A DNA stretch of 64,000 bases from Pseudomonas svalbardensis (lineage in GTDB: Bacteria > Pseudomonadota > Gammaproteobacteria > Pseudomonadales > Pseudomonadaceae): contig NZ_CP125619.1 of the NCBI RefSeq assembly GCF_030053115.1, forward strand, positions 5,157,501-5,221,500, in the 5' to 3' direction. The notes under the pieces were generated by a model that was given only the letters and a program-made list of their open reading frames with translations, was not told the origin of the DNA and ran no database searches. Shown piece by piece: positions 25,493 through 53,629 of the stretch; the stretch's first letter is position 1, and each line of letters starts with the position of its first letter. The position numbers and the translations under genes are program-made.

Positions 25493-25576
25493 CGCGATCC
25501 CTTGTAATTGGATGGACTCGCCCCCACTGTCTACCCGCTTTTAAAAAAACTGCCGCCCCGTTGCATCTATGTATTA

Positions 25577-25678
25577 GGCCTATTCGAGGAAGCCGTCTTC
25601 GGCTTCTGGCCAAAATTGGAAGAGCTCGTGGTATGCCGATTACAGTCAGGCCTCGAAGGCCAGTAGCAGCTAAGGCAT
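25577..25678 (-). ncRNA. Candidate IS1111-type bridge RNA core (two stem-loops)
   Basis: The 240 bases downstream of the transposase gene are non-coding but structured. On the minus strand, 25678-25633 forms ATGCC, a large internal loop, GGCC, a five-base loop, GGCC, a second internal-loop strand, and GGCAT. Next, 25611-25577 forms GGCC, GAAGCCG, loop AAGA, CGGCTTC and GGCC. A T-rich run follows at 25541-25547. IS1111-group elements are known to encode their guide (bridge) RNA at this end. The RNA itself is inferred. Confidence 0.45.
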
Positions 25679-25762
25679 CAATCCACGCCGGTCTTACCTG
25701 GGGTCAATTTTTTTTCAGCAAAGGGCCGGACAGTTAGTACCTCGGTGGCAGAACTCTGTCGC

Positions 25763-26866
25763 TCAGTGGCTCATCGTCGCTTGCCGGCCATCACCAGCCT
25801 GGCGACGATAAGTCTGGTCATTCTGTAGAAGCACCCAGACGATTCGCAGGTTGCGGTTGGCTAACCTGACCGCAGCCTCCTTACGGCCCAGTCGGCTCAT
25901 CCAGCGCAACAAGCGGCGGTCATCGGGTTGCTGGGAATCAGGTCGTAGTTGTTGCAGTACCGCATGGGCTCCCTGGATCATCAGGCTGCGTAAATAAACA
26001 TCGCCTCGCTTGGTCATGTCCCCCAGCCGGACCGTCTGCCCGCTGCTGTGCTGGTCAGGCACCATGCCAAAGTACGCGGCAAACTTGCGGGCATTGGGAA
26101 ATCGCTCAGGCTTGGTTTCCTTGGCCACCAGTGCCGTGGCAGTGACTGGGCCGATGCCGCGCACAGTCATCAGTCGCTTCGCCGTCATGTCGGCGTTGGC
26201 GGCCACTTCGAGGCGCCCCGTCAGCACGCTGATGCGTTCGCCCAAATGGCGCCACTCGGCCAACAGTTCGTCGATCAGTTCACGCAGCAGACCCGGCACC
26301 GGCTGGGTGGCATCTTCCAGTACCCGCGGAATTTTCTGGCTGATCGCAACATCGCCCTGCGCCAAGGCCACGCCATGCTCGAGCAGCAGGCCGCGCATCT
26401 GATTACTCACCGCCGTGCGTCGACGCACATAGCCCTGGCGGGCGCGATGCAACGCCTGCATTGCCAGCGCCGCAACGCTTTTGACCGGCACTGCGCAGAT
26501 CTTTTCATCGCGACCAGCCCGCAGGATCGCCAGCGCATCGTTGCGATCATTTTTAGGCCCGCTGCGATGTGTGGTCACCAAGCCGGCTGGAAGAATCCGC
26601 GCCAGATTGCCTTGGTCTTGCAGCTGCCGGGCCCAGGCTTGAGCACCCGGGCCGGTCTCCATCAGAACCACGACATGAGGCGGCAACTGGCGTAGAAACT
26701 CATAAAACGCCTCGCGCGACTTGATCCGTTGCTCGTAGTGCACCTGGCCGAGGACGTCTTCACCGGCGACCTGAAAGACCTGCTTGGCCAGATCGACCGC
26801 CACGGTTGTGCAGGCCGACAAATCGGAAGAAGACAGGAATTGATCAATCGAAGTATGCTTTTTCAT
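25763..26866 (-). CDS. IS110-family transposase (IS1111 group)
   Basis: This is a 367-residue recombinase with the RuvC-like DEDD domain (D25 in VAVDLAKQ, E70 in LMETG, D107 and D110 in KNDRNDA) and the C-terminal Tnp_20 domain (VRGIGPVTATALVA), ending in the serine motif DQHSSGQTVRLGDMTKRGDVYLRSLM. The last motif is typical of the IS1111 group. All catalytic residues are present. The ATG overlaps a copy of the element's terminal 12-mer, so the end repeat and translation start share bases. Confidence 0.93.
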   Translation of the reverse strand: MKKHTSIDQFLSSSDLSACTTVAVDLAKQVFQVAGEDVLGQVHYEQRIKSREAFYEFLRQLPPHVVVLMETGPGAQAWARQLQDQGNLARILPAGLVTTHRSGPKNDRNDALAILRAGRDEKICAVPVKSVAALAMQALHRARQGYVRRRTAVSNQMRGLLLEHGVALAQGDVAISQKIPRVLEDATQPVPGLLRELIDELLAEWRHLGERISVLTGRLEVAANADMTAKRLMTVRGIGPVTATALVAKETKPERFPNARKFAAYFGMVPDQHSSGQTVRLGDMTKRGDVYLRSLMIQGAHAVLQQLRPDSQQPDDRRLLRWMSRLGRKEAAVRLANRNLRIVWVLLQNDQTYRRQAGDGRQATMSH

Positions 26867-26958
26867 GGACTCGCCCTCGCTGTCGTTGGCTGTTTAGACT
26901 GCCACCGTGGCGCATTGACGCCTCGGCTTGGGCGAGTCCATCCAATTACAGGGATCGC

Positions 26959-53021: not shown

Positions 53022-53275
53022 GGCGCGGATTAAAGGAAAAGCCTTACAGAACTGAGATTTAGGAGCGTATTAGGAGGGGTAAGGAGAATCAGACGTGTAA
53101 TCCCGCTCAATAACTTGAACCAGCACTGATGGCTGCGCTCGAAAGTTAAAGTAATTTGTTAAGAGTAAGATTTTTTCGGTATTAGGAAAGTGCTTCTGCT
53201 GTTGATTCTGTAAGGAGGGAAATTGCTACTACAGGCGCCCTGCTCAATGATTAAAGCAGGTAGGGGGAAAAAGGT
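53022..53275. other. Gap between mra promoter and rnpB 3' end
   Basis: This stretch of about 254 bases between the division-cluster promoter and the RNase P RNA gene is relatively AT-rich (53040-53220). A T run after the rnpB P1 helix (minus strand, CCACCTTTTT) probably ends rnpB transcription. I see no convincing gene. Confidence 0.4.
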
Positions 53276-53629
53276 GGAGAGTCGATCTGTAAGCCGGGTT
53301 CTGTCTTGAACAGTCATTCGTCTACGATGGCCATCACTGGACATCTTTAGCAACCTACCCGGTCCCAGCGCGGGCCACGCCTTGGGACCCTATTTGGTCT
53401 TGCTCCAAGTGGGGTTTACCTAGCCACGAACTGTTGCCAGACGTGCGGTGCGCTCTTACCGCACCTTTTCACCCTTACCGGCGCCGAAGCGCTTAGGCGG
53501 TTATTTTCTGTGGCACTTTCCGTAGGCTCACGCCTCCCAGGCATTACCTGGCACTTCGCCCTATGGAGCCCGGACTTTCCTCCCCCCCCTAATTTTCATA
53601 GAGGGCAGCGACTGTCCGATCGACTCTCC
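53276..53629 (-). ncRNA. rnpB: RNase P RNA, class A
   Basis: The catalytic RNA that trims the 5' ends of tRNA precursors. On the minus strand the 5' end GGAGAGTCGATC pairs with the 3' end GATCGACTCTCC to form helix P1. The highly conserved P4 sequence GAGGAAAGTCCGGGC (53583-53569) and the 3' conserved ACAGAACCCGGCTTAC are present. The size, about 354 bases, is normal for a bacterial type A RNA. The ends are set by P1 pairing and may be off by one or two bases. Confidence 0.97.

Follow-up and report, generated by a model that had tools for sequence, protein, structure and literature searches.

A probable bridge RNA in an IS1111-group element of Pseudomonas svalbardensis, and the rearranged copy that carries it

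Introduction

Does the non-coding end of an IS1111-group element in Pseudomonas svalbardensis encode an RNA that guides the element to its target, and how is such a guide to be reconciled with the DNA that flanks this particular copy? The element lies in a window of 64,000 nucleotides (contig NZ_CP125619.1, positions 5,157,501 to 5,221,500; the window is the whole stretch analysed, and coordinates below are positions within it). A first-pass annotation had proposed a bridge RNA at 25577-25678, on the basis of two hairpins and a seven-base match between a loop strand and the junctions of the element, which it conceded could be chance. We find that this segment is very probably part of the bridge RNA (seekRNA) of the element, in which loop 1 would read the target and loop 2 may read the donor, and that the window copy has lost its right end.

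Element, transposase and extent of the RNA

The element and its RNA comprise the following features (carets in sequences mark junctions):

25512-26941, minus strand: IS1111-group element, subterminal repeat to subterminal repeat, 1430 bp, with six full-length paralogues in the genome
25763-26866, minus strand: transposase gene, 367 aa, with PF01548, PF02371 and a GMVPDQHSSG motif
26930-26941, minus strand: left subterminal inverted repeat, 12 bp
26942-26948, minus strand: left-end extension TAATTGG, 7 bp
25512-25523, minus strand: right subterminal inverted repeat, 12 bp
25505-25511, plus strand: TAATTGG, a second copy of the left-end extension, replacing the expected ACA^TAGCAGCTG (from the six paralogues and empty sites)
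25554-25698, minus strand: predicted bridge RNA (seekRNA) core, from a covariance model and covariation

The transposase belongs to the IS110 family, carries the NCBIfam label IS110 family RNA-guided transposase and has an intact reading frame. Similarity of its serine region to ISCro4 and IS621 was found by alignment in the PDB, the G--P----SG motif is present, and the DEDD residues were assigned by eye. The 12-bp subterminal inverted repeats match perfectly, within the 11-13 bp range of the IS1111 group, and a long non-coding region characteristic of the group lies 3' of the transposase gene, where the first-pass annotation had placed it. A search of the own genome recovered six more full copies, 89% identical and of the same length, all of which read N-TG^TAATTGA-repeat ... 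repeat-ACA^TAGCAGCT, where N is C, T, A or G. Extensions of 7 bp on the left and 3 bp on the right, in agreement with those published for IS1111 elements, are thus present in 6/6 paralogues and fail only at the rearranged right end of the window copy. The window element therefore belongs to the IS1111 group, within which it forms its own subfamily. The genome also holds a 55-bp left-end remnant at CCCTG^TAATTGA (L008, 1501-1555), the remainder of which is missing.

The sequence features described by the first-pass annotation were all confirmed. One hairpin is formed by ATGCC/GGCC/GGCC/GGCAT, the other by GAAGCCG/CGGCTTC within GGCC/GGCC; GATTACAGTCA is present as a loop strand, the T-run is there, and the junctions read AATTACAGGG and CTTGTAATT. 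The proposed extent was too short, the covariance model matching 25554-25698 at 177 bits, a score to which the window RNA contributes as one of the rows of the model. In Rfam the element had no match at E up to 1 or at the gathering score.

Guide sequences and target sites

In loop 1 the 5' strand contains AGCTGCTA and the 3' strand CTGTAAT, and three features are assigned to this loop:

25664-25671, minus strand: putative right target guide AGCTGCTA, pairing with target TAGCAGCT
25639-25647, minus strand: putative left target guide GACTGTAAT, matching target CTG^TA and the element start
25649-25661, minus strand: inner hairpin of the target-binding loop, GGCC/GGCC

To compare guides with insertion sites, relatives were collected in two ways, through their transposase (36 loci) and with a covariance model made from 14 of the RNAs, and further stretches were added. 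The covariance search of the genus gave matches in 20 of 298 genomes, the own genome included, and that of the class in 3 of 368 besides the own genome; the relatives are mostly of one genus. The RNA was readable by pattern in 104 of 130 candidate loci (L011-L046, L107-L200). The 26 unreadable loci include cut-off or partial elements (L026, L027, L037, L039-L044, L046), loci with known right flanks whose guide could not be read, mostly through an RNA cut at a contig end (L133-L136, L193-L200), and distant model matches (L108, L109 in G260, L110 in G205, L112). Readable loci were reduced to 84 distinct rows, each a guide with its 30-nt right flank; 32 repeats were dropped, and 25 loci left out as duplicates of guide and 30-nt right flank. 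Since this merges some separate insertions in similar repeats, 84 is a low count; four of the six own-genome paralogues remain as rows. Copies in which the motif varies to GG[CT]C or GGCAG are covered by the 84 rows but absent from a 72-row set.

The reverse complement of the guide octamer equals the copy's own right flank at all eight positions in 78 of the 84 rows, and at seven in four more (L121, L130, L150 and L176). The remaining two rows both have rearranged right ends, namely L168, with four mismatches, and the window copy. When the eight guide classes are each compared with their own commonest flank, all eight fit, with agreement at 64/64 positions, a count that includes the TA core with which 83/84 flanks start. 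Permuting classes against flanks gives a mean of 48.25, and 64 is reached by one arrangement in 40320, the true one. On a transposase tree of 38 distinct DNA rows, drawn from the 72-row set and holding five of the eight classes, the guide label must change 7 times or more (mean of shuffles 21.1), which argues that the match between guide and flank is not one inherited state. Homologues at different targets, then, do not keep one loop sequence, and the identification as a bridge RNA made in the first-pass annotation is supported by a loop that changes with its flank.

The smallest of these guide switches involves one base, which sets AGCTGCTA apart from AGCTCCTA, with the corresponding targets TAGCAGCT and TAGGAGCT. 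The RNA of L011 is identical to that of the window element at 144 of 145 bases, and the single difference, C for G, falls in the guide. The L011 flank, TAGGAGCT, carries the matching base; relatives with an empty site at the window locus have TAGCAG at this point.

The seven-base match noted at first is real. Read on the opposite strand, GATTACAGTCA corresponds to the left target guide, and the match consists of this guide and the first element bases. The loop strand does match both junctions, although these prove to be one left-end junction present twice. The first-pass annotation had thus seen the left half of the target guide (CTGTAAT), and missed both the rearranged right end and the stronger right guide, which was not visible to it because the right half of the target is absent at the window copy. 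By sequence, target matching is strong for the right guide and weak for the left one.

Several further copies were read individually. In L168 (G623, about 1560-1830) the last ~73 bp are tandemly duplicated, giving two right ends, starting at internal ATAGG; its outermost flank, TAGGAGCC, fits the guide. G632 holds ten copies among those listed (L130, L181-L189), whose guide CGCTCTTA fits; those read lie in a repeat with a left side ending in CGCTG and a right side that is mostly TAAGAGCGAAACCATA, with no obvious palindrome of the kind described below. Two copies in G305 (L108, L112) are distant model matches from another family, and their 5' loop strand, left out of the counts, is by eye roughly compatible with CGGCTGAG and CGACTTGG.

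The target is presumably a repetitive extragenic palindrome (REP), a short palindrome between genes, a name that follows the literature on Pseudomonas REPs (PMC1525189). In the own genome the reconstructed target CTGTAGCAGCTG has 81 matches, versus 7 for a reversed control pattern, and 17 facing target pairs lie less than 200 bp apart. TGTAGGAGCTG has 30 genome sites, versus 27 for its reversed control, and TAGCAGCT has 81; with only six copies, a preference for TAGCAGCT over TGTAGGAGCTG in this genome cannot be judged.

Donor loop and circle junction

Loop 2 may act as the donor-binding loop, with CCAAT pairing with the left end and ATACATA copying the right end:

25612-25619, minus strand: putative donor guide CCAAT(TTT), pairing with left end ATTGG
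25567-25574, minus strand: putative donor guide ATACATAG, matching right end ATACA^TA of intact copies
25577-25611, minus strand: inner hairpin of the donor-binding loop
25528-25533, minus strand: TAGACA, resembling a -35 hexamer, of the promoter predicted at an intact circle junction

The 3' strand of the loop is invariant, with ATACATA in 84/84 rows; it agrees with the right end ATACA^TA in 83/84 (the right end being ACA in the same number). The 5' strand agrees with the left end at five of five positions in 41 of the 64 rows with a known left end, comprising 38 with CCAAT against ATTGG and three, all from one genome, with the compensated change CCGAT against ATCGG. That the second loop matches the element's own ends is suggestive only, and weaker than the matching to targets.

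Judging from published members, the transposase and the RNA would excise the element as a circle and insert it between the TG and TA of a REP. In-silico joining of right and left ends yields CATAAT with a -35-like hexamer (TAGACA, TTGACA, TTGAAT, TTGAAC or TGGCCA) 16-18 bp upstream in 17/17 distinct end pairs printed besides that of the window copy, for which the rearranged right end makes the joined sequence uninformative. Over 61 rows the mean best promoter score is 9.66 of 12 at the junction; at the integrated ends it is 7.80 and 7.92, and single-base shuffles give 7.15. The circle junction would therefore be predicted to form a promoter.

Conservation of the RNA structure

The two internal loops are carried on covarying helices. 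Across the 14 aligned rows, 28 pairs in six helices are paired in 98.2% of cells, a value equalled by none of 500 shuffles, and slid structures on the same alignment reach 24-42%. Changes on both sides affect 6 of the 28 pairs (reached by 2 of 500 shuffles), the covariation score is 0.119 (0 of 500) and nine further pair types occur (41 of 500); these shuffle counts are not probabilities, because 20 of the 28 pairs are invariant, two depart through misfits only, and the rows are related. The changes are confined to helices 1 and 6, and helices 3, 4 and 5, being invariant, are uninformative either way.

Rearrangement of the window copy

Among 59 genomes searched, with the own genome left aside, the closest matches to the downstream flank of the window copy are L048 (G058) and L049 (G046). 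In both, the gap from norR to cheV contains a pair of facing REPs, CCCTTG^TAGCAG...CTGCTA^CA, that span 129 bp core to core inclusive and hold no element; the left REP of L049 has one base changed (TAGCAGTTG). More distant relatives read at the norR-cheV gap have other sequences. On the plus strand the window instead has CCCTTG^TAATTGG-repeat (25499-25523) and, at the other end of the element, repeat-CCAATTA^CAGGG (26930-26953). The outer junctions are thus both of the left-end type and sit in separate REPs, and the 129 bp that separate the REP cores in these relatives are lost. A pattern for this hybrid junction, allowing up to 2 mismatches, had matches in 11 of 398 genomes, and the window site was the only one without mismatch among the matches listed (four in G505 and three in G632 lie outside that list). 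The others had 1-2 mismatches, and those in the own genome, G472 and G632 are ordinary left ends.

The likely and simplest history is that two copies entered both facing REPs of one pair, face to face, and that a deletion between their 12-bp subterminal repeats, which are in direct orientation, then removed the intervening DNA. What remained would have a left-end junction on either side and could no longer excise. If the RNA is a bridge RNA, the double left-end copy could still have arisen otherwise, for example by RNA-guided recombination working directly on the two REPs, or by gene conversion in which the left end served as template for the right. The doubly occupied REP pair proposed as an intermediate was not seen by eye among the copies listed, and the REPs of L048 and L049 each present a target to such a recombination, with the one changed base in L049. 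Nevertheless, gene conversion alone leaves the loss of the 129 bp unexplained, whereas a simple deletion between the 12-bp direct repeats accounts exactly for both junctions, and we consider these other routes unlikely, if worth keeping in mind.

For ISEc11, altered target flanks on either side blocked circle formation (PMC11187229). The window copy, with its altered flank, is therefore probably immobile and no longer excises, and its RNA could serve other copies.

Alternative explanations

A number of observations weigh against a guide RNA acting as described. The right flank of the window copy differs from the guide prediction at 8/8 positions, and L121 (G046), a single copy, has guide AGCTGCTA at site TAGGAGCT, a misfit at the very base that separates the two classes. 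Agreement of the left guide over 60 rows falls off outward, from G at -1 (60/60) and T at -2 (49/60) to 34/60 at -3 and little beyond, and the left half therefore adds little specificity beyond the TA core. The donor 5' strand matches the left end imperfectly, at four of five positions in 11/64 rows, own-genome paralogues with left end ATTGA among them, and at three in 12/64. Predicted fold energy gives no signal (z 0.07, with 107/200 shuffles at least as stable as the window RNA), so that stability is no evidence, and, as noted above, no doubly occupied REP pair was seen by eye among the copies listed.

The RNA might alternatively be a regulatory small RNA of the transposase gene, its flank matches being incidental. 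For ISPpu9 an RNA of ~180 nt 3' of the transposase gene was detected by Northern blot and this RNA, Ssr9, proposed to act as an antisense-RNA sponge (PMC8450116). Variation with the insertion site would not be expected of a transposase-gene regulator, whereas the loop tracks the flank in every guide class, which contradicts incidental matching and makes this explanation very improbable; an RNA that is both guide and regulator of the transposase gene may exist. Least probable of all is a terminator or DNA-level end structure without an acting RNA, despite the T-run 3' of the second hairpin and a fold that, taken alone, is not unusual.

Elsewhere in the window, a bacterial RNase P RNA (class A) lies on the minus strand at 53274-53627.

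Relation to known systems and significance

A guide-RNA system of this kind is already known and recently described, and the window subfamily adds a new example. Published IS1111 seekRNA elements include ISEc11, ISKpn4, ISPst6 and ISPa11, and their published description covers the features found here, including the non-coding region 3' of the transposase gene, subterminal repeats of 12 bp that are extended by 7 bp on the left and 3 bp on the right, a top-strand complement 5' of the bottom-strand match, a REP target in the case of ISPa11, and natural redirection among relatives (ISEc11/ISXne4) (PMC11187229). Unlike those members, the window element stands in its own subfamily and the window copy is without a right end. 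The closest IS-named plasmid element is ISPa25, at 40.8% protein identity among the 40 records listed of at least 5000 that matched; the best 5000 plasmid records, all less than 60% identical, were left out of the analysis.

The bridge RNA of IS621 and other IS110 elements (PMC11208160) has two internal loops, for target and donor, and the two guide strands of each loop overlap in a core dinucleotide; the window RNA likewise has two internal loops, one for the target and a putative one for the donor, with TA as the core. The same source reports bridge RNAs predicted in 93.0% of IS1111 elements, mostly at the right end, with ISPpu10 and ISPa11 inspected (PMC11208160). The IS621 RNA differs from that of the window element in its location at the left end, the subterminal repeats of the IS110 group measure 2-3 bp (PMC11208160), and the guide order is reversed (PMC11187229). 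ISPpu9 and ISPpu10 of Pseudomonas putida are likewise described as IS110-family elements inserted in REPs at one fixed position, and ISPpu9 makes a small RNA 3' of tnp (PMC1525189, PMC8450116).

The subfamily constitutes a clean natural data set, with eight guide classes, at least 7 switches on the tree, and a one-base guide switch paired with a one-base target change in otherwise identical RNAs. It can be used to test how many guide bases matter, and whether the IS1111 donor loop really reads the element ends. The window copy in turn shows how such an element may become fixed. Facing REP pairs might even act as a trap, in which the guide reads both arms of the palindrome, the pair is entered twice face to face, and a collapse across the 12-bp repeats then eliminates the pair, with one copy left fixed at the site between two left-end junctions. 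We offer this tentatively, as a doubtful proposition; if true, bridge-RNA elements would have a self-limiting way of erasing REP pairs while becoming fixed themselves.
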